The translations under genes and the position numbers were made by a program. Shown one piece after another: positions 19,298 through 31,436 of a stretch of 64,000 nt of DNA. The stretch's first letter is position 1. Every line of letters starts with the position of its first letter. The notes beneath the pieces are model-generated. The model ran no database searches and had not been told where the DNA came from. It saw only the letters and a program-made list of their open reading frames with translations. The stretch is from Frankia casuarinae (lineage in GTDB: Bacteria > Actinomycetota > Actinomycetes > Frankiales > Frankiaceae): contig NC_007777.1 in NCBI RefSeq assembly GCF_000013345.1, positions 4,774,001 through 4,838,000 on the forward strand, read 5' to 3'.

Positions 19298-22200
19298 TCA
19301 GCTGACCGTGGGCGGGACTGTCGTGACAACCGCAGCGTGGTTGTGCCGTGCCAGTTCGACGATCTGGTCGGCGATGGCCTCCGCCCGGTCCTGGTCGAAC
19401 AGGTCGTCGCCGTCGATGGACACGTCGCTGACCGCTACCGTGATCCAGCTGTGCAGGCGTTGCTGGGCGTGGGCGTTCCCCCAGAAGTGCACCCTCCCGA
19501 TCTCCCGACACAGATGATCGACGATGAAGGTGACGAGCTCGGCGACGGCCTCGATGGCGACTGGTGTCATCTCCTTGCCCTCGGCGACCCGTTCGGCGCG
19601 TAGGATGTCGAAGAAGAGGCGTTCGATCGGAGTCAGCTGGACACCGTCGGGCGCGTCGTCGGGATCCTCGGCGGTGGTCCGTCCCGCGCGGGCCTTGTCG
19701 ATCAGGTCGCCGAGTTCGGCGACGAGCTGGTCCCACTGGTCACGGAGCCGGTCGAGGATCTCCGACAGCTGCTGGGACAGGGTGCGCGCGCGAACCGGGT
19801 CGGCGTCGAGCATGCCGCTGATGTGGTGGCGCAGGGCGTGCTCCATCTCCGACGCTTTCGCCCGCTTCGACGTCAGCCCGCCGACCTTCTCGTCGAAGCG
19901 GGCGTCGGTGAGCGACACAGGTGGGATCTTCTGGCTGATGCCGAGCGCGACGATGTGGTCGTCGATCAGGCGGCGTACCTTTTCGCCGTAAACGGAGACG
20001 TCGAAGTCCGGATCATCGCGGTCGTAGCGTCGCCGTGCGAGCAGGCCGATCACTCCGAACGCCTTGGTGTCGGCCGCATAGGGCAGCGCTTCCGGTCGTG
20101 GCAGGACCGTCTCCAGGCTGCGGGTCAGCGCCCGGTAGGCGACCTGGAACGCGGCCCGCAGCGCGTCGTCGGCCAGGATCTGGACGCAGGCTTCCTGATC
20201 TGCCGGGGTGTCGAAACGCTCCTGGCCGCGGTCTGTGAACAGCGCGCGGACCCTGGCGTGCCGGTCGGCCAGCAGTGGAAGCTCGTCGGTGATGCTCGCC
20301 AGCGCGCCGTCGATGTCCTCGGCCGCATACGCTTCCAGCGCGGCGTGCAGATGCTTGGCGACGCCGAAGTAGTCGACGACGTAGCCGTTGGCCTTCCCCC
20401 GAGCGGTGCGGTTCACGCGAGCGATGGCCTGGAGCAGTTCAGCTTCCTTGATCCGTCGGTCGAGGTAGATCACCTGGTCGACGGCGGCGTCGAAGCCGGT
20501 CAGCAGCATCGACTTAACCAGCAGGAAGGCAACCGTGCTGGTCGTGGCCGGGTCCGGTGCCGGGTCATCGGGTGCGGGCAGCGGCTTTTTGAACTCCTCG
20601 ATGACCACCTTCTGCCGGGTCTCGTCGATCCAGTCGCGCCAGTCCTTCTCGTTCTGCTCACCAGAGATGACCGGGACGAAATCGAGCCGAGCGATCAGGT
20701 CGCGGTACGGCCAGGCCCGGACGTCGCGCAGCCGGGCGCGCCCGAGGCCGGGGATGCCCTCGGGGGAGGTGGCCCGGTCCGCGGCCTCGGGGGTGCGCAA
20801 CTCGGCGGGCAGTGCATCGAGCCGGGCGACGAGATCATCACGAGCGGCCAGCAGGGCGTCGCGGTAGCGCACCGCGGCGAGCCGGCTGGTCGCGACGATC
20901 TGCGCCTTGAACCCGCCGGGCAAGGCTGTGTCGACATAGTGGCGGAGCATGTCGCGGGCCTTCGCCGTGATCATCTTCTCCGCTTCCAGCACGTTGCCGA
21001 TGGTTCCCCATCGACGTCGGATCTTCGCCAGCTGCGCATCGGTGAGGTCGGGGAACATGTCCTCGAACAGCTCGTCGAGGTCCGCCGAGTCCTGGACGTC
21101 GCTCTTCGTCGTACGGCCCTCGTAGCGGATCGGCACGGTCGCGCCATCCGCCTCAGACTCGCTGATGGTGTACCGGTCCAGATACGGGCCGAAGATCGCA
21201 TGGGTGCGTTTCCGCTTACCCATGATGATCGGCGTCCCGGTGAACCCGATCCGTGCCGCGTTCGGCAACGCGTCCAGCAGCACGGAGTGCAGAGTGCTGC
21301 TGTGCGAGCGGTGCGCCTCGTCCACGAGCACGACGACACCCTCGGACGGGTCCAGCACTCCGAGTGACTTCACCTCCAGCGGGGCGTCCTTCGCCGCGTC
21401 CGGGTTCCGGTACTTCTGGATCATCGCGAAAAGCAGCGCCTTGCCCGGAACCGACAGCAGCGAGCGAACCTGCTGGACGTTCCTCGCCGTGCGGGGTGTC
21501 TCTCCGGTGAGTTCGGCGGTCTTCGCGAGCTGGTCCTGGAGGTCCCTCCGGTCGGTGACCACGACGACCTTGAAACCGACAAGATCGGGATGCGTCCGCA
21601 TGACCCGGATCAGGAACACCATGGTCAGCGACTTGCCCGAGCCCTGGGTGTGCCAGATGATCCCGCCGCGCCGGTCGAACTCGCCGTCGGCCACCCGGGT
21701 CTTGCCGGTGCTCAGGCGGTGGATGGTGCGCCGGACCGCCCGGTACTGCTGGTAGCGGGCGACGATCTTCATCGTCCGCCCGGCCTGCGCGGGCATGAAT
21801 AGCGTGAAGTGCCGGACGATGTCCAACAGCCGCTCCGGGGCGAGCATGCCGGCGACGAGCCGCTGCTGGCTGGTCAGCCCGTCGACGCCGAGTGCTTCGG
21901 CGACCTCGGTCTCCGGAGTCGGCTCGGTTGTCTTCCACTCGGCGAAGTGATCCGGGTCCGAGGTGAACGTGCCGACCTTCGCCTCGTCCCAGCTCGTGGC
22001 GACGACGAACTGGTTGGTGTAGAATAGCCGCTCGTTGCCCTCGCGGGTGACAGCCCCGCGCTGGTCGGCGTACCGGGCCAGCTGACGGATCGCCTTCGCC
22101 ACCGGCGAGGACGTGGTGGGGCTCTTCGCCTCCACGACCACCAGCGGGATGCCGTTGACGAACAGCACGATGTCCGGCTCGATGTAGCGGCGCCCCTGGC

Positions 22201-22630
22201 TGCCCGGGATGTCCACCCGAAACTGGTTCACCACCAGAAAGTCGTTGTTCGACGGCGTGTCCCAGTCGATGAACCGAACCCGACGGTTCCGACCACCATC
22301 GACCTCCGGAATCCCCTCGACGGGCACACCGAGCAACAGCGCTTCCGTCAACTCCTCGTTGATCTCGACCAGCCTGGTCGCCTTCGGCCGAGTCAGCGCG
22401 GCAACGGCCTGCGCGAGCCGGCCATCATCAAGCCACAACTCGCCGTCCGGCCCTGGATTGATCCGCCGCAGCGCCGCGTGCAGCCGACCCTCCAACAGCA
22501 CCTCAGAGAACGACGCCCGACCGCTCGCGGCCGGGGCGTGCTTCGTCCCGGCAAGATACGCCCAGCCCAACCCGCGCAGCTGATCGACAAGCGGACGCTC
22601 AACCAGCTCGAACTCGGCAGCCCCGGTCAT
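19298..22630 (-). CDS. hsdR: Type I restriction endonuclease subunit R
   Basis: 1,110 residues. The N-terminal PD-(D/E)xK nuclease has EPDIVLFVNGIPLVVVEAKSP near residue 160. The translocase has Walker A IIWHTQGSGKSLTMVF, DEAH-type VVLVDEAHRSHSS, FTGTPI, and motif VI LLQAIARVNRTARGKANGYVVDYFG. A coiled C-terminal part (HALRHHISGMLDADPVRAR) probably binds the methylase core. Its start overlaps the hsdS stop (ATGA). Length and motifs look intact, so the nuclease/translocase should be functional if the methylase core assembles. Confidence 0.95.
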   Translation of the reverse strand: MTGAAEFELVERPLVDQLRGLGWAYLAGTKHAPAASGRASFSEVLLEGRLHAALRRINPGPDGELWLDDGRLAQAVAALTRPKATRLVEINEELTEALLLGVPVEGIPEVDGGRNRRVRFIDWDTPSNNDFLVVNQFRVDIPGSQGRRYIEPDIVLFVNGIPLVVVEAKSPTTSSPVAKAIRQLARYADQRGAVTREGNERLFYTNQFVVATSWDEAKVGTFTSDPDHFAEWKTTEPTPETEVAEALGVDGLTSQQRLVAGMLAPERLLDIVRHFTLFMPAQAGRTMKIVARYQQYRAVRRTIHRLSTGKTRVADGEFDRRGGIIWHTQGSGKSLTMVFLIRVMRTHPDLVGFKVVVVTDRRDLQDQLAKTAELTGETPRTARNVQQVRSLLSVPGKALLFAMIQKYRNPDAAKDAPLEVKSLGVLDPSEGVVVLVDEAHRSHSSTLHSVLLDALPNAARIGFTGTPIIMGKRKRTHAIFGPYLDRYTISESEADGATVPIRYEGRTTKSDVQDSADLDELFEDMFPDLTDAQLAKIRRRWGTIGNVLEAEKMITAKARDMLRHYVDTALPGGFKAQIVATSRLAAVRYRDALLAARDDLVARLDALPAELRTPEAADRATSPEGIPGLGRARLRDVRAWPYRDLIARLDFVPVISGEQNEKDWRDWIDETRQKVVIEEFKKPLPAPDDPAPDPATTSTVAFLLVKSMLLTGFDAAVDQVIYLDRRIKEAELLQAIARVNRTARGKANGYVVDYFGVAKHLHAALEAYAAEDIDGALASITDELPLLADRHARVRALFTDRGQERFDTPADQEACVQILADDALRAAFQVAYRALTRSLETVLPRPEALPYAADTKAFGVIGLLARRRYDRDDPDFDVSVYGEKVRRLIDDHIVALGISQKIPPVSLTDARFDEKVGGLTSKRAKASEMEHALRHHISGMLDADPVRARTLSQQLSEILDRLRDQWDQLVAELGDLIDKARAGRTTAEDPDDAPDGVQLTPIERLFFDILRAERVAEGKEMTPVAIEAVAELVTFIVDHLCREIGRVHFWGNAHAQQRLHSWITVAVSDVSIDGDDLFDQDRAEAIADQIVELARHNHAAVVTTVPPTVS

Positions 22631-23937
22631 ACCGCCAGCGTATCCACTGCATCCGACACATCCCGCAACCCCGACACCTGAACCCGCCCCATCAACAGAT
22701 CATCCATCAGCCCCTGCTTGACGAGTCGCAACTTCGCCAGCTCGGCCTTTGTCGAGGATATCTGTCGTTCGGCAGCGCCCAGTGATCCAATTATCATTTT
22801 CTGTGTCGCCAGTGGAGGTAGTGGAACGGGGAGTGCGGATAGCTGACTCTTGTTGATCGATGCCAGGTTGGTAGTTTGCTTCGAGATGCCCATGAAGTAG
22901 CTGCGCCCTGCAGTGGATGCGCTGTAGGTAGACAAATACTCGGGGAGCAGGCGAATCTTGTCGCAGCGAACACGGAAGATATGATTTTGGTGTAGGCAGG
23001 GGTCAATCGACCCGTCCCAGACGGCACCACGCCCGAGCTTGTCGAAGTCCCCTCCCTCCGTCATGAGAACGTCTCCAGCTTGAAGCAGGTAGCGATCAAA
23101 CTCCGATGTTCGCACGGTTACCGTCTTGATGTCGGTAGTGTCGATATATCCATCTTGCACGTTTGCGACCCGAAGGTAGGGAAGCTCGACTGAACGGCCA
23201 GCGGATGTAACACCGCCGAGCGTTACGCCTCCCGTGATCTCGCTCAGACGGTCTAGCCGGTCCATCCGCCAGCAGTCGGGAAGTCGACCCGACCGAATTA
23301 CATGCTCCTGAAGTAGATCGCCCCGCAATGAGTCGAACACCTGTTCGAGCTTGCCGACGAGTCGCTCCGTTGAACGGATCGCCTCGTCTGCCGCGTCCAG
23401 GATCTCGGAAATCTTACGTTGTTTATCTGGCGGTGGGACCGGAATTGGAAGTGCCCCCAGCTGTCGAGAATTAATCGTATACAAACCGGAGCTTGTGGCG
23501 CAGTTTCTCCCCCAGTAGGACTGGGAAAAGCTGGAATTCAGCCAGTGTAGCGCAAATCTCGCTTCAAGATTCCTTGGGCGCAATCTAAACAGATGGTTTT
23601 GGTAGAGGCAATTCTTCGACTCTGGCCCCACCTGGGCGCATCTTCCGATCTCGGCTGGGTTGGCGTGCCCCTCAACTACGAGTAGATCTCCGTCATCCAG
23701 TGCGTACCTAATCCGTTCGCGAGCTGATGCCTCTAGCCATGCGACATCGCTTAGTGTGAGACGACCGCGTTGTACATTCGCAACGCGGAGGTAGGGTGCA
23801 TCTTTCCTGCCGGACGTTCTCCGTGGTGAAAGGGTTATGCCGGACTGTATCTCGAATTCTGTGCCGACGGTTGAGATTCTTCCCGGGAAGATCTCGCCGA
23901 ACGATTCTATGGAAATATGTCGGAGTCCATCACTCAT
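22627..23937 (-). CDS. hsdS: Type I restriction-modification specificity subunit S
   Basis: About 436 residues with two target-recognition domains in tandem. Each has an APYLRVANVQ/LPYLRVANVQ block, an LYQNHLFRLRP/LHQNHIFRVRC block and a PIPVPPPDKQRKISEIL/PVPLPPLATQKMIIGSL helix region. The ATG at 23937 overlaps the natural end of hsdM (TATGAGTGA), so hsdM and hsdS were originally coupled. Base composition in parts (for example 22790-22960) is visibly lower in GC than the neighbours, as is common for exchanged specificity subunits. Confidence 0.93.
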   Translation of the reverse strand: MSDGLRHISIESFGEIFPGRISTVGTEFEIQSGITLSPRRTSGRKDAPYLRVANVQRGRLTLSDVAWLEASARERIRYALDDGDLLVVEGHANPAEIGRCAQVGPESKNCLYQNHLFRLRPRNLEARFALHWLNSSFSQSYWGRNCATSSGLYTINSRQLGALPIPVPPPDKQRKISEILDAADEAIRSTERLVGKLEQVFDSLRGDLLQEHVIRSGRLPDCWRMDRLDRLSEITGGVTLGGVTSAGRSVELPYLRVANVQDGYIDTTDIKTVTVRTSEFDRYLLQAGDVLMTEGGDFDKLGRGAVWDGSIDPCLHQNHIFRVRCDKIRLLPEYLSTYSASTAGRSYFMGISKQTTNLASINKSQLSALPVPLPPLATQKMIIGSLGAAERQISSTKAELAKLRLVKQGLMDDLLMGRVQVSGLRDVSDAVDTLAV

Positions 23938-24020
23938 AGCCAAGGCCCTTGAGATGGGAGGCGAGTTCAGAGGTCGCGGCGGCGCGGGCGGATTCGAGAT
24001 AATAGAGGGACGTGGCGTAC
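23930..24020 (-). pseudogene. hsdM 3' remnant separated by the IS701-type insertion
   Basis: Between the IS border and hsdS the minus strand reads YATSLYYLESARAAATSELA then SHLKGLGYE and a stop. Joined to the other side of the IS it completes the predicted original C-terminus (SWWNKYATSLYY...). Confidence 0.75.
24014..24020. repeat. IS701-type target duplication GGCGTAC (left)
   Basis: Perfect 7-bp direct repeat with 25716-25722. Confidence 0.8.
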
Positions 24021-25715
24021 CTCGACTTTCGCGGTTTTCTTGATCTCCAATTTTATGGTTGACGTCGCGTGAGACGTGTTCTGTGCGTGTTTGGTGTGCT
24101 GGTTCGTGGTGGGGTGTTTGAGCTGGTTTGCGGTCTCGGGTCGATGTCTGTTTTGTCTGGTTCCCGGGCTGTGGGGCCGGGATGGGGGCTGGTCAGGCCG
24201 CGAGGGCGCTGTCGGTGGTGGCCCAGGCGAGGCGGAGGGTGTGGATTTCCGCGTCGGTCGGGTTCGCGGGCCGTGTGGGCTGATATTGGGTGGTGATCAG
24301 GACGCGGCGGAGCTTGACGGCGAGGTCGGCGGTGCAGGGGCGGGTCTTGGTGGTGTACCAGGGGGTGCGGGCGCGGTGGTCGGCGGCGTCGCCGTGGTGG
24401 TGGCCGGTGGTGAGGTACCAGGCGAAGGCGAGGGTCTGGCAGGCCAGGCCGAACGGGACGGTGCGTTCGACGGCGGCGGTGAGTCGGTTGCGGGCCTGGC
24501 CGACCCCGAAGATCTGCTTCGCGTCCGCGATCGCGACCTCGATCGACCAGCGGGCCGCATAGCGGGCGACGAGCTCGGCGGGCCTGGTCAGGGTGTCGGT
24601 CGTGACGAGCGCGAGGTCGTAGGTCCCGGGCCGGTCGGTGTCGCGGACGAGGACGACGGTGACGGGGCGGGGGCCGAACACTCCGTACCACAGGCAGCGG
24701 ATGACCGCCGTGTGCACGGTCCCGGCGCGGCCGTAGCGGGTCACGGCCGTCGGGCGGAACGTCGCGGCCGCGGCGAGCTGGGCGAGGGAGGGCAACCGGT
24801 CGCCCTTGAGTCGGGGCCGGCCACGTCTCCCGGTGCGGGGTGGGGCGGGGGCGAACAGGGCGGCGTCGCGGCGGAGCCGGGTCGTCCAGGTCACCGAGGC
24901 CGGCAGTCCCCTGAGCTCGTCGCCGGCGTAGGCGGCATCCGCGACGACGTGGACCCGGCGGGCGGGGAACGCCCCGGCCAGCTGTTCGACCGCGCGGGCG
25001 GCCAGCCAGAGCCGCGAGGCCGAGACGGTGTCCTTGCGGACCAGGCGGGCCAGGACCGGCAGGCAGACCGGCCGGCCGAGCAGCGGCGCCGGCACGACGA
25101 GGCCGACGATCACCCAGTTGTTGCCGAACCCGACCTGGTCTGGCCCCTTCGCGGATCCGTCGTGGAACCAGCCCACCGCCCACACCTTCTTCCCCGCCCG
25201 GTGGAACAGGGTGTCATCGACGACGACGTGCAGCGGCCCGGCCGGGACGAGGCGGTCGACGACGAGCCGGGCGAGCGCCAGGCCGACCTTCTCCGGCGAC
25301 CAGACCGCCCGCGCGAAAAACCGGTGCGCCCGGTCGTGCGGCCACAGCGTGGACAGGCCCGCGCCGACGAGCATCCCGCACACCGTGCGCCGCCCGCCGG
25401 TGGCGAGCATCCCCACGACGAGCGCCCGGAACGTCCGGAACGACGGCGCGGTGAAACACGGCCGGAAACCCTCCAGCAGCACCGCCAGAGAAACCGGTAT
25501 CGTCACGTCCGGGAGCATCGGCGTCCAACTTTCGGGTTGGTACAGGAAACGCTGATGCTCCCGCCACCAGCCCCTCGCGCTGGCCTTCCACCCCTCCGCC
25601 ACGCACCGCGATACCACCGGCAGGCACCAGGGAATCATCCACCCGAAAGCAATCGGGAAAATTATCCAGCCGTTGCCAGACACTGATCTGGATCAAGAAA
25701 ACTGCGAAACTCTAG
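24021..25715 (-). mobile_element. IS701-family insertion sequence inside hsdM
   Basis: 1,695 bp. The ends CTCGACTTTCGCGGTTTTCT and CTAGAGTTTCGCAGTTTTCT are inverted repeats with a few mismatches. It is flanked by GGCGTAC on both sides (7-bp duplication). It contains one complete transposase. It interrupts hsdM 3' codons at WWNKYA, and because its gene runs in the same direction it may also drive hsdS-hsdR. Confidence 0.88.
24193..25683 (-). CDS. IS701-family transposase
   Basis: 496 residues. LHVVVDDTLFHRAGKKVWAVGWFHDG holds the first Asp, VHVVADAAYAGDEL the second, and RYAARWSIEVAIADAKQIFGVGQARNR the Glu region. The HDRAHRFF motif in the N-terminal part is typical of DDE_5 (IS701) transposases. 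The GTG at 25683 is the longest start; a shorter start cannot be excluded. Confidence 0.92.
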   Translation of the reverse strand: MSGNGWIIFPIAFGWMIPWCLPVVSRCVAEGWKASARGWWREHQRFLYQPESWTPMLPDVTIPVSLAVLLEGFRPCFTAPSFRTFRALVVGMLATGGRRTVCGMLVGAGLSTLWPHDRAHRFFARAVWSPEKVGLALARLVVDRLVPAGPLHVVVDDTLFHRAGKKVWAVGWFHDGSAKGPDQVGFGNNWVIVGLVVPAPLLGRPVCLPVLARLVRKDTVSASRLWLAARAVEQLAGAFPARRVHVVADAAYAGDELRGLPASVTWTTRLRRDAALFAPAPPRTGRRGRPRLKGDRLPSLAQLAAAATFRPTAVTRYGRAGTVHTAVIRCLWYGVFGPRPVTVVLVRDTDRPGTYDLALVTTDTLTRPAELVARYAARWSIEVAIADAKQIFGVGQARNRLTAAVERTVPFGLACQTLAFAWYLTTGHHHGDAADHRARTPWYTTKTRPCTADLAVKLRRVLITTQYQPTRPANPTDAEIHTLRLAWATTDSALAA

Positions 25716-28256: not shown

Positions 28257-29687
28257 TCACGAGCCACTTTGGGCCTGCGCGCGGGGCACGCCGACGAGCC
28301 GGGCGGCCCCCTCCGTGACGTCACCTGCGCCGCGCGCGAGGCTGCCGGCCTTGGTGCACCAAGGACAGTCGGGATCTTGCCGGCCGTCCTGGAGGGCTCG
28401 GCCGCGCGCACGCGGGTGATGCAGGACCGAGGCGCTGTCGGTGGGGTCGTCGTGGAGGCAGACGGCGGCGAACATGAAGTGGTTGACAGCCTCGGCGGTG
28501 GGCAGCGCATTCAGCGCAATGACGCTCGCTGCCGGGACCTCCGGCACGTACTGCGCGTTGCGTCGGTCGGCTGCGGAGTGCATCTCGATCGCGAGCTGGG
28601 TCGAGTCGATCAGCCCGTTGCACCACAGGCAGCCTTCGGCGGGCAGCAGTAGACGGGCCACGGTGTGGATCTCACCGATCTCGCCGGCTGGACCTACTGG
28701 GATCTTGACGCCGACCTGGGTGGCGGGGATCAGGTACTGGTGGACGGTGAGGTTGACCCAGTGTCGGGCGGAGTGAGCGTCTGCGGCGAGAAAGATCCAG
28801 TCGCAGGTGGTCAGTGCGTCGCGGGCGTCAGGATGCTCGACGCGGTCGGCGATGGCCGTGATCTGGATGGAGGGGTTGGCTCGGCGCGCGTTTCGCGCGG
28901 CGATATTGACCTTGAGTTCGCCGACGTCGTCTGGTTCGGCGGCGACTAGCCTCGGCAGGTTGGTGGCTTCGACCCGGTCGCCGTCGATCAGGACGAGTTC
29001 GCCGACGCCGAGGCGTGCGAGGAGTTCGGTGATGATGCTCCCTGCTCCGCCGAGGCCGACGACCGCGACGCGCATTCTGGCGAAGGTCTGCTGCCCGGCT
29101 GGGCCGAACAGCAGCGCCTGTCGATCCCACCGCGGGTCGATGTCAGGTGCAGGTGCCGGCCGTGGACGGAGCCAGATGATGTTGTTTCCCGGAACGACGG
29201 TCTCGGCGAGGACAGCGCGGGTGCCGTCGGGGAGCCAAAGGTCGCCGGCGGCGGCCCGGGGGGTGAGGACGAGCCCACCGACGATCTGGCGGGTGATCTG
29301 CCGCAGGGCTGGGTATCCGCGTTCGTGGCTGGCCATGTCGATCGTCGAGAACGCGACGGCTCCGGGCTGGAGGATGTCGGCGTGGTTGTGGACGGCGAGG
29401 TAGACGAGCTTCTCGTCGCGGGCGCGGAGGGCTTGGTCGCGGACGAACGTCGCGTCGAGCGCCCGGTAGCTGGTCGTGCCGTCGACGAAGTCGGTGCCGT
29501 CGGCGGCGAGTATGACGTCGCGGGCCAAAAGGCGGGGGCCGCGGGGGCCGTCCGCGTAGCCGGCGAGGATGACGGCTCCGTGCTCGTCGCCGTCGGAGAA
29601 CAGGTGGTCGGCCAGCGTCGTCCAGAGCTTGACCGGGATGGTCAGGCTCCAGCCGGTGGCCGGTGGGTTCACTGCGAGGTGAGCCAT
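28257..29687 (-). CDS. JAB-E1 fusion: ubiquitin-like activating enzyme with N-terminal deubiquitinase-like domain
   Basis: 476 residues from [10 protein letters not shown]; the start lies inside the end of the E2-like gene (19-bp overlap). Residues 1-150 form a JAB/MPN metalloprotease domain: Glu in [10 protein letters not shown] and the metal site in LAVHNHAD...FSTIDM. Residues 180-400 form a ThiF/E1 adenylation domain: [20 protein letters not shown] (ATP loop), [15 protein letters not shown] and [11 protein letters not shown]. Two Cys pairs ([16 protein letters not shown]) likely bind zinc; either could also supply a thioester Cys. It would adenylate the Ubl and process or remove it. Confidence 0.88.
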
Positions 29688-30055
29688 GTCAGGACCTTCT
29701 GCGCCTTGAGCGCCGCGTTGTCGACGGCGGGATTCCAACGGTTGGACCTACGGGAGAGCTGAAGCGCCGGCCGGTCCCGCCAGGTGACCTGCTGGATCGC
29801 GGAGCCGTGTGGCTGACCGTCGGTCCTGGCGAGCGGGCCTGTGTAGTGCGGGTAGACGTCGGACGCGGGGTAGGTGGCGTTGAGGTGGAAACCGAGCCAC
29901 GTCGCCGGTGGGTCGTAGAGCGGGGCCACATCGATGCTTTCGACGACGATGTAGGCGCCGCCGGCGCCGTCCGGGGCGACGTCCACCGTGGTGTCGGCGA
30001 ACTGGTCCCGGACGGCGTCGATGGCCTCCGCGACGGCCGCGGAGAGGGCGATCAC
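29669..30055 (-). CDS. E2/UBC-like protein without cysteine
   Basis: 128 residues from GTG 30055, which overlaps the stop of the Ubl gene (GTGA). The UBC-like pattern shows in the strand-loop WLGFHLNATYPASDVYPHY followed by [35 protein letters not shown], reminiscent of bacterial E2 family proteins found beside JAB-E1 genes. There is no Cys anywhere in the protein, so it cannot form the normal E2 thioester. It may be a Ubl- or target-binding scaffold, or use another residue. Assignment rests on context plus a weak motif match. Confidence 0.65.
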   Translation of the reverse strand: MIALSAAVAEAIDAVRDQFADTTVDVAPDGAGGAYIVVESIDVAPLYDPPATWLGFHLNATYPASDVYPHYTGPLARTDGQPHGSAIQQVTWRDRPALQLSRRSNRWNPAVDNAALKAQKVLTWLTSQ

Positions 30056-30324
30056 GAGTTGTCGTCCGGCGCGACCGCGATGAACTCCTGCTTCGGGTGG
30101 ACCCGGATCGGGTCGACGTCGCCGATGACCCGGTAGCGCTGACCCTCCCGGACTGACAGCTGGAAGCCGACCTCGATCTGGACGCCTTGCTCGATCGCAG
30201 CCTTCTTGATCTCCAGCCCGGTGACCTCCCGGTCCGGCAGGTCGACCTGCTGGCCGTTGACCGTCACCGGGATGCCCGAGGGGCGACGGGCGAGCTCCGC
30301 CGCCGCCTCCGCTGTGCTGGCCAT
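30052..30324 (-). CDS. Ubiquitin-like (multiubiquitin-domain type) protein
   Basis: 90 residues from ATG 30324, after a strong GAGGAGGAGCAGG ribosome site. The beta-grasp pattern is short: IPVTVNGQQVDLPDREVTGLEIKKAAIEQGV, then FQLSVREGQRYRVIGDVDPIRVHP and FIAVAPDDNS. It resembles the Multi_ubiq domain (VNGQ...VTGxEI). It does not end in Gly-Gly but in DDNS, so a classical C-terminal conjugation would need processing or another chemistry. First gene of the Ubl-E2-JAB/E1 operon. Confidence 0.7.
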   Translation of the reverse strand: MASTAEAAAELARRPSGIPVTVNGQQVDLPDREVTGLEIKKAAIEQGVQIEVGFQLSVREGQRYRVIGDVDPIRVHPKQEFIAVAPDDNS

Positions 30325-30476
30325 CCTGCTCCTCCTCACTCGGTCGCCGCGCTCGACAACCGATCATGTTGCGTAATCCATGCAGTGTTCGAGTTCTCGA
30401 ACGCCGCCCACGCTACCACGTCCGTCGCGAAGGTCGAACAGTGGTAGAACCTCGACATGAGGATGAGAGGGTCGTG

Positions 30477-30851
30477 ATGGCCAAGACCCGCGTGGACGTC
30501 AACGGGCTGTACGGCGCGCTCGACGCAGCGCGCACGGCACGGGGCCTGTCCTGGAGGCAGCTGGCCAAGGAGATCGAGGTGAGCCCGTCGACGATGACGC
30601 GGCTCGCCAACGGCCACAAGCCCGAGGTGGACGCCTTCGTCGCGATGACCCGCTGGCTGGGGATGCCCGCAGAGAGGTTTATGCTTGACGACGGCGACGA
30701 CGAGCGCCCACAGCCTGAACTGGTCGCCGAACTAGCCCCGCTTCTACGGGCGCGCAAGGACCTCGACGCCGAAGATGTCCGACACCTACAAGAGATCATC
30801 GGGTCCGCCGTGCGCCGCTTCAACGCCGATCGGGACGCGCGGGAGACATAA
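30477..30851 (+). CDS. XRE-family helix-turn-helix regulator
   Basis: 124 residues from ATG 30477 with GAGAGG upstream. Cro/C1-type HTH: LYGALDAARTARGLSWRQLAKEIEVSPSTMTRLANGHKPEVDAFVAMTRWLGM, then an acidic linker and the helix RARKDLDAEDVRHLQEIIG. It is divergent from the Ubl operon with about 150 bp between, and directly followed by an ImmA/IrrE-type peptidase. This pairing recalls ImmR-ImmA switches, where the peptidase inactivates the repressor. Confidence 0.88.
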   Translation: MAKTRVDVNGLYGALDAARTARGLSWRQLAKEIEVSPSTMTRLANGHKPEVDAFVAMTRWLGMPAERFMLDDGDDERPQPELVAELAPLLRARKDLDAEDVRHLQEIIGSAVRRFNADRDARET

Positions 30852-31436
30852 GTGGCACGTCCAGGCTGGAATCAGGCCAAGATGAGGGCGCTCGCCGCCG
30901 AAATCCGCGTCGAAATGGGCATCGGATCCTTCGACCGACTCGACCCTTACCGGATCGCGGAGGAGTACCGAGTCCCCGTCTACCCACTGCAAGAACTAGG
31001 AGACCACCGCGGCCAGTGCTCCGAAGCGGCGATCGCGCACTTCACCGTCACCCGGCGAACGAAGTGGTCGGCGGCCCTCGTCGCCGCGGGCTCCAACCGG
31101 ATGATCATCGAGAACGCGGCACACGAGGAGGTGCGGCGTCGCTCGAACCTCGCCCACGAGATCTCGCACCTTCTCCTTGAACACGAGTTCGACACCCTTC
31201 TTCTCACGGACGACACCACCTGCTTCACGGATGAGAAGAAGGAGAAGGAGGCCCAGTTTCTCGCTCGCGAACTCCTCATCTCGGAGCAAGCGGCGAAACA
31301 GGCAGCCTTCAAAAGGCTCACCAACGAGGAGGTCGGAGCCCTCTACGACGTCAGTTCCCAGTTTGCGCAGTGGAGGATGTCGGGGCCACGCGTCTACGCA
31401 CAACGTTCTCTCGCGCGCCAGAACGGGACCTCCTGA
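30852..31436 (+). CDS. ImmA/IrrE-family metallopeptidase
   Basis: 194 residues from GTG 30852, which directly follows the regulator stop codon. The zinc motif is NLAHEISHLLLEHEF (HExxH plus a later Glu) near residue 105, in the order typical of ImmA/IrrE: RIAEEYRVPVYPL upstream and EKEAQFLARELLISEQAAK downstream. It is cytoplasmic. The probable substrate is the adjacent XRE repressor, which would derepress the divergent ubiquitin-like operon on a stress signal; that link is an inference. Confidence 0.9.
   Translation: MARPGWNQAKMRALAAEIRVEMGIGSFDRLDPYRIAEEYRVPVYPLQELGDHRGQCSEAAIAHFTVTRRTKWSAALVAAGSNRMIIENAAHEEVRRRSNLAHEISHLLLEHEFDTLLLTDDTTCFTDEKKEKEAQFLARELLISEQAAKQAAFKRLTNEEVGALYDVSSQFAQWRMSGPRVYAQRSLARQNGTS

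Follow-up and report, generated by a model that had tools for sequence, protein, structure and literature searches.

Several descriptions of bacterial operons for ubiquitin-like proteins (Ubls) bear on the locus reported here. The section on operon type 6e in Iyer 2006 (PMC1779556) calls the E2 of this type inactive, and the proteins of the Citrobacter Bub operon are known from solved structures. The passages on operon control in PMC13373217 report that CapW or CapH+CapP accompanies 219 of 544 Bub operons, and CapP is described there as a protease, activated by single-stranded DNA, which cleaves CapH; controllers of the CapH+CapP type beside Bub operons are already in print there. We analysed a window of 64,000 nt of the Frankia casuarinae genome (NC_007777.1, positions 4,774,001 to 4,838,000; one contig of 5,433,628 bp), in which genes for a Ubl, an E2-fold protein and a JAB-E1 fusion lie divergent to genes for an XRE repressor and an ImmA/IrrE peptidase (28257-31436 of the window). 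Because both profiles and structure models place its JAB-E1 and E2-fold proteins closest to Citrobacter BubCD and BubB, the locus is a Bub operon and belongs to operon type 6e. An earlier note, made from the sequence alone, had called this architecture not known as described, and in this it was mistaken, since type 6e in Iyer 2006 and the Bub structures precede it. Taken together, the locus is probably a Bub (6e) operon with a CapH/CapP-type switch, in which DNA damage induces an ester relay of a Ser-ended Ubl and the JAB domain removes the Ubl again.

The three conjugation genes are located on the minus strand and overlap each other. The bubA-like gene (30052-30324, ATG start) encodes a Ubl of 90 aa with the C-terminus VAPDDNS and a single Multi_ubiq beta-grasp domain (Pfam, 1.2e-14); the bubB-like gene (29669-30055, GTG start) encodes the E2-fold protein of 128 aa; and the bubCD-like gene (28257-29687, ATG start) encodes the JAB (JAMM)-E1 fusion of 476 aa, in which Pfam finds ThiF at 2e-37. 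The overlaps are 4 nt between the Ubl and E2 genes and 19 nt between the E2 and JAB-E1 genes. On the plus strand, the CapH-like XRE repressor gene (30477-30851, 124 aa; HTH_31, 2.6e-7) abuts the CapP-like ImmA/IrrE (M78) metallopeptidase gene (30852-31436, GTG start, 194 aa; Peptidase_M78, 4e-15). The divergent starts of the XRE and Ubl genes are 152 bp apart (30325-30476), and a scan for sigma-70 promoters and terminators in 401 bp at the locus found none. Both gene groups had been claimed in the earlier note, the divergent pair at about 150 bp; open reading frames (ORFs), profiles and structure models agree on the first, and ORFs and Pfam confirm the second.

Pfam reported no JAB family in the JAB-E1 protein at E<=1. 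A profile of its homologues gave Citrobacter BubCD (9EA4) as the best solved match at 3.4e-79, and the AlphaFold model (pLDDT 87.6) was aligned with 9EA4 at Z 38.0 and a root-mean-square deviation (rmsd) of 3.2 over 418 residues, with 23% identity in the structural alignment. Among the 25 PADLOC E1-E2 matches listed for this protein, all cover the E1 stretch only (about residues 186-362). The phage records searched gave 17 matches to the JAB-E1 protein, none covering 80%, and the 15 listed matched the E1 stretch only; a scan of viral_contigs with JAB patterns gave 32 pattern matches and no relatives. The E2 protein matched Pfam Prok-E2_E at 0.0026 (17.9 bits), under the gathering cut-off of 25. 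Its AlphaFold model (mean pLDDT 93.3) fits Citrobacter BubB with Z 13.4 and rmsd 2.4 over 118 residues, followed by UEV and E2 folds which tie at Z ~8. A profile made from 14 wider sequences recovered BubB (9EAE_C) at 1.6e-12; one made from 49 close homologues alone found nothing, BubB included, at E 0.001. When the 90- and 128-residue proteins were checked for Ubl and E2 folds, both were matched, by Multi_ubiq and BubB respectively.

For the survey of relatives, 113 were found by scan patterns and 80 were kept; because the patterns came from the JAB domain, they put no selection on the Ubl tail. We refer to loci by L numbers and to genomes by G numbers. In the tree, all 89 clade loci stand together against 12 others, with weak node support (0.308). 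L110 was dropped as a duplicate of L045, and L051-L053, all with other Ubl ends, were placed outside the clade counts as more distant. The loci are not independent, as L057 and L058 belong to one strain and L048 and L129 look like near copies. Clade loci served as seeds for the profiles of Ubl, XRE and M78, those for M78 and XRE being iterated on the same loci, and such profiles may favour look-alikes. Five of the 89 loci are without a Ubl; L089, L099, L104 and L125 start too near the contig end, and in L103 the profiles found no Ubl or E2 in 6 kb upstream of JAB-E1.

The active-site residues are strongly conserved in the clade. The JAMM residues E35, H100, H102, S114 and D117 are present in 89/89 JAB-E1 homologues, the four CxxC cysteines (Zn-type ligands) in 88/89 and Tyr380 in 88/89. 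Through the alignment, with numbering checked on the C. freundii plasmid homologue, D117 and Y380 correspond to D104 and Y370 of BubCD, and the title of structure 9EAV states that its depositors used a BubCD D104A/Y370F mutant. Y380 is in a low-confidence loop of the model (residues 377-385), which we take to be the region holding the catalytic Cys in other E1s. Beyond the four CxxC ligands, no E1 Cys is invariant. The E2 protein of Frankia contains no Cys at all, and the sole Cys column of at least 15% among its homologues is a variable N-terminal one (13/86). By the E2 numbering that we assume, counted from the helix Trp towards the N-terminus, the catalytic Cys is presumably replaced by Gln99 (78 of 86 homologues; Met in the other 8). 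Ser101 is invariant (86/86), as is Lys117 (86/86), and Arg102 is found in 85/86. As the E2 lacks Cys with Ser101 invariant, and the E1 keeps Tyr380, the cascade looks thiol-free from these alignments; Ye et al. (2026) reportedly found that Bub works through an oxyester.

The lack of Cys also suits a reading of the E2-fold protein as an adaptor without catalytic function, similar to RWD or UEV, with the E1 alone handing the Ubl to targets; the tie of UEV and E2 folds and the word inactive in the type 6e section of Iyer 2006 (PMC1779556) point the same way. This is possible, and yet we lean against it, for Ser101, Arg102 and Lys117 are near-invariant, and a Ser occupies the corresponding position both in BubB and in other Bub E2s, where it belongs to the motif WSRH.

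The C-terminal end of the Ubl is as uniform as these residues. In the clade, 83 of 84 Ubls end in Ser (78 DDNS, three HEDS, one QEDS and one DENS), the lone exception being L115 from a Polyangiaceae metagenome-assembled genome, which runs past DDNS as SEPTC. Going by record titles, the Ser-ended Ubls are spread over 13 groups of phylum rank: Actinomycetota, Proteobacteria, Nitrospira, Chloroflexi, Cyanobacteria, Acidobacteria, Gemmatimonadota, Verrucomicrobia, Planctomycetes (Zavarzinella), Deinococcus, Rhodothermales, Dadabacteria and Binatia. At the level of titles and abstracts no published description of a Ser-ended Ubl branch is apparent, and the Ser end in this clade is new as far as we could see, as are the thiol-free look of the cascade and, described below, the palindrome and the crowding of M78 peptidases upstream of these operons. 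Since 83 of 84 genes stop straight after the Ser codon, Ser is suggested as the mature end. The alternative, that the Ubl is trimmed before use and DDNS is a recognition tail instead of the conjugated end, is on this count unlikely. In its favour are the extension in L115, the fused Ubl-E2 precursors of Citrobacter-type Bub operons and the processing of the Bil Ubl by the Bil JAB, as described in parts of PMC11354881. With a Ubl that reaches its Ser end without trimming and a JAMM motif that is always conserved, the sequences suggest that the fused JAB works as a deconjugase.

The JAB-E1 model also fits the E1 folds of ThiF, MoeB and MccB (Z 24-26). MccB activates a peptide with a C-terminal Asn, and DDNS minus one residue would end in Asn. 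The Ubl might on these grounds carry sulfur or an acyl group for a small molecule (ThiS/MoaD-like or MccB-like) and not modify proteins, but we consider this improbable, because a JAMM peptidase with complete motif is fused to the E1, an E2-fold partner was found in 86 of the 89 loci, and BubCD and BubB are the closest solved relatives. A protein modifier ending in Ser remains our reading of the Ubl.

Outside the clade the Ubl ends differ. In Citrobacter-type operons Ubl and E2 form one fusion protein with NNG at the junction, and the crystallised fragment BubA 155-229 stops at Gly229 of the C. freundii protein; the junction is likewise NNG in R. gallicum, Thioclava, A. johnsonii and Synechocystis B12. 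The Ubls of Synechocystis 6803 and R. phaseoli end in TTTEG, that of Deinococcus L051 in FGGGV, and an ORF of Abditibacteriota L138 in GQELC. Structure 9CD2 ends in TDKS. It was considered as a Citrobacter BubA with a Ser end, and this was rejected, the C. freundii homologue having NNG at 227-229 in accordance with the BubA(155-229) construct; by its end we would group 9CD2 with the Ubls of loci with a JAB-less E1, which end in TDRS (the second Frankia locus, see below), TTKS (L033) and TARS (L038). In the sub-branch with the HEDS end (L046, L079 and L096), an ORF of about 1120 aa lies upstream, annotated as ATP-dependent helicase in L046, with an M78 match about 3.9 kb upstream, and the whole is perhaps one larger operon.

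The controller was counted in a zone of 2.6 kb upstream, in the 78 clade loci with a Ubl gene and at least 1500 nt upstream (11 loci without Ubl or with less than 1500 nt were excluded). An XRE gene was found in 55 of these loci, divergent in 53, an M78 peptidase gene in 45, and one or both in 66; the refuting case named in the earlier note, JAB-E1 homologues that rarely have such neighbours, is thus not what the survey shows. The 205 kb upstream of the Ubl genes contain 49 M78 matches, 47 of them with the HExxH motif, versus 8 in the other 778 kb of these loci, a density about 23-fold higher. The Frankia ImmA/IrrE protein itself has the motif HEISH at residue 102, and its best PADLOC match is capP (1.1e-8). 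In five of 12 plasmid Bub regions outside the clade (L052, L053, L142, L144 and L145), the annotated genes near the Ubl include helix-turn-helix (HTH) and ImmA/DUF955. L051 has a single 401-aa XRE protein with both XRE and M78 matches, and in the remaining six there is a winged HTH (wHTH) gene, a lone HTH gene, a WYL gene or nothing that could be recognised.

Other controllers were also found near close relatives of the operon. In the congener G001 (Frankia, 7,497,934 bp), where JAB-E1 is 91% identical, a 108-aa ORF is followed by a 358-aa XRE-M78 fusion (locus L135). The 108-aa ORF gave no Pfam family at 0.001, and on this account the idea that it is RelE-like was dropped. In Rhodococcus L042 a RelE/ParE toxin gene is annotated, and the protein named 'HigA' there (369 aa) is an XRE-M78 fusion. 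For seven of the 12 loci that lack both XRE and M78, as well as for L130 and L133, Pfam was run on one upstream ORF each, and no repressor family exceeded its cut-off; in the same search L094 gave MarR-like matches just under the cut-off and L117 an AAA ATPase. At XRE-only loci, for example L045, L063, L064, L066-L071 and L090, the XRE gene faces the Ubl gene. The ORF behind XRE was searched with Pfam in nine of the 21 XRE-only loci, and only L090 gave a family over the cut-off. This is a serine proteinase of SDH type, ClpP-like (1.8e-8), and might be a further protease that removes the repressor.

The region between the divergent genes contains a perfect palindrome, GTTCGANNNNTCGAAC (30387-30402), with arms GTTCGAG and CTCGAAC around a central TT, which we regard as a putative operator. 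It occurs once in the genome of 5,433,628 bp. A possible degenerate second operator with one intact half-site is located 37 nt from it (30424-30439). In the five nearest tree relatives which keep XRE+M78 (Lentzea, Dactylosporangium and three Micromonospora), the palindrome stands at the corresponding position with at most one mismatch. Four of the five carry it twice, at a distance of 38-39 nt; in Lentzea a perfect copy is accompanied, 41 nt away, by one that has two mismatches. Eight perfect copies were found in 93 loci (1.07 Mb), all in the XRE-Ubl intergenic region, and eight one-mismatch copies are scattered elsewhere in these loci. In the stretch examined of four loci with other controllers (G001, L042, L058 and L060), the palindrome was absent within two mismatches; neither the XRE nor the M78 profile matched in L058 and L060. 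The strain that contributes both L057 and L058 has controller and operator at one of these loci and neither at the other. The slightly more distant L061, which has XRE + M78, gave no copy within one mismatch, and among the more distant of 20 loci exact 7-bp palindromes were few and none was shared. As the palindrome is present or absent along with the controller type, controller and operator appear from these comparisons to travel together, separately from the operon.

Pairs of XRE and ImmA genes are common on mobile elements, and the pair could be a regulator or antitoxin pair in its own right, placed next to the operon by chance. We find this scarcely credible in view of the M78 density upstream of the Ubl genes, the conserved operator that is missing with other controllers, and the same divergent layout at the second Ubl locus of this genome. 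The XRE/ImmA pair as the switch of the operon, which the earlier note had claimed from position, is therefore supported by palindrome, neighbourhood survey and controller differences. Gene identities, folds, active-site and operator conservation and the controller association are all computed results.

From them we infer repression, cleavage, the ester relay, conjugation, its targets and the role in defence or stress. Without induction, XRE would be bound to the palindrome between the divergent genes and keep bubA-bubB-bubCD low. DNA damage, probably by phage attack or another stress, would make the ImmA/IrrE peptidase active, and XRE would be removed. The E1 half of BubCD would adenylate the C-terminal carboxylate of the Ser-ended Ubl; the Ubl would be passed on to target proteins, probably as an oxyester via E1 Tyr380 and Ser101 of the Cys-less E2; and the fused JAB would take it off the targets again. 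The best reading of the locus function is damage-induced, reversible Ubl conjugation.

Several points weigh against this mechanism. The E1 Cys C295 is common (73/89 homologues). Since the characterised Bub Ubls end in Gly and the Frankia Ubl ends in Ser, the known Bub chemistry may not carry over. The XRE protein matches capH in PADLOC at 5.7e-5, but RmrA better (1.6e-9). XRE stands without detected M78 in 21 of the 78 loci, and neither is found in 12. Finally, protection against phage by Bub is given as not demonstrated in the passages of PMC13373217 on its function.

An anti-phage defence role is thus plausible and unproven. That the operon serves DNA damage or stress in general, a possibility raised for Bub in the same part of PMC13373217, is quite conceivable, though we would not place it first: 12 of the regions examined lie on plasmids, and HsdM relatives were found near six of 89 loci in about 0.79 Mb, versus 47 N6_Mtase matches in 20 genomes of about 111 Mb, a comparison between two methods with rounded sizes. 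HsdM relatives look commoner around the clade than expected, and most loci gave none.

The type I restriction genes in the window are hsdM (25751 to ~28066), hsdS (22627-23943; Methylase_S, 7e-17) and hsdR (19298-22630); a transposase gene (24193-25683) separates hsdM from hsdS. The earlier note had placed the operon directly beside them; the genes are real, and they are a local neighbour, an HsdM relative occurring in only six of 89 loci, the window included. For this reason the restriction genes were rejected as a part of the system. They adjoin the operon in both Frankia genomes, with identities of 87% for HsdM, 93% for HsdR and 30% for HsdS. The low value for HsdS beside the other two makes a swap of specificity likely (22627-23943 versus L135:9593-10924). 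HsdM is 771 aa here versus 806 aa in G001, and its C-terminus diverges, so that hsdM has apparently been truncated at its 3' end by the transposase insertion.

We might speculate further that a branch of Bub spanning many phyla works without thiols or a C-terminal Gly. Its ready-made Ubl ending in DDNS would be activated on Ser, or on a trimmed Asn as in MccB, and handed on through Tyr and Ser esters, with a damage-sensing repressor-protease and its operator as an interchangeable unit. We put this forward tentatively, as something rather to be doubted than expected. Ubl conjugation generally uses a C-terminal glycine and cysteine thioesters. If the Ser end and the Tyr/Ser esters are true, neither would be needed for conjugation, and a short three-gene system could be tested heterologously. 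The controller differences between close operons, with the operator present or absent to match, would be a natural test of damage-sensing repressor-protease modules as switches of Ubl operons.

A second Multi_ubiq operon exists in the same genome (C1:1028433-1028654; L001, L136). Its Ubl ends in TDRS, and it encodes a DUF6791-ThiF protein of 397 aa without JAB and a DUF6527 protein, the only DUF6527 match of the genome (C1:1029918); a divergent pair of XRE (HTH_3, 5e-14) and M78 peptidase (6e-25) genes is found again. Another type of Ubl/E2/JAB/E1 operon was observed in the Frankiaceae G022, G026, G023 and G033 (L006-L009). Its E2 keeps the Cys (WYCLED) in L006, L008 and L009, with Prok-E2_E at 1.3e-10 in L006. 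CRISPR-like repeats lie beside two of these four operons (13 copies in L007 and three in L009), and a reverse transcriptase gene (RVT_1, 2.5e-24) beside that of L008.

Compared with known systems, the locus is most similar to Citrobacter BubA-BubB-BubCD (9EA4, 9EA5, 9EA8, 9EAE and 9EAV), with which it shares the Ubl, the Cys-less E2 and the JAB-E1 with the same Asp and Tyr; CapH+CapP-kind controllers are reported for Bub operons, as found here. The C. freundii plasmid homologue has a long Ubl-E2 fusion with NNG at 227-229, a DUF6527 gene and a wHTH gene upstream, whereas the Frankia locus has a separate single-domain Ubl ending in DDNS and no DUF6527 gene. Operon type 6e of Iyer 2006 (PMC1779556), composed of polyUbl, inactive E2/RWD and JAB-E1, agrees in gene content and order, with the E2 between Ubl and JAB-E1; its treble-clef protein Y is absent from the Frankia locus, and the section cited mentions no controller. 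The Bub locus on plasmid pSYSX of Synechocystis PCC 6803 (L145) shares the divergent HTH and ImmA/IrrE genes, the separate Ubl and E2 and the ThiF-family JAB-E1, and a DNA methyltransferase gene is nearby, also like the Frankia neighbourhood; it differs in the Ubl end TTTEG and the presence of DUF6527. This plasmid locus is possibly a ready test bed for a Bub operon. The CapH+CapP controllers known from CBASS, Bub and further operons are alike in placing XRE and an M78 peptidase beside the promoter, but the Frankia pair gives weak capH and capP profile matches only, and cleavage is predicted by analogy. The earlier note had named Bil and the Cap2/Cap3 part of CBASS as examples, and the locus is neither, by the layout of E1, E2 and JAB and by its lack of Cys. 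Bil (BilABCD) shares Ubl, E1, E2 and JAB parts; as described in parts of PMC11354881, it has four separate genes, an E1 with a Cys domain, and a BilA with two Ubl domains and a reactive C-terminal glycine. Membership in Bil was rejected on the JAB fused to E1 and on the absence of an invariant Cys besides the four CxxC ligands, C295 being the commonest case discussed above, and Cap2/Cap3 of type II CBASS on the E2, which is a separate gene here and not part of an E2-E1 fusion.

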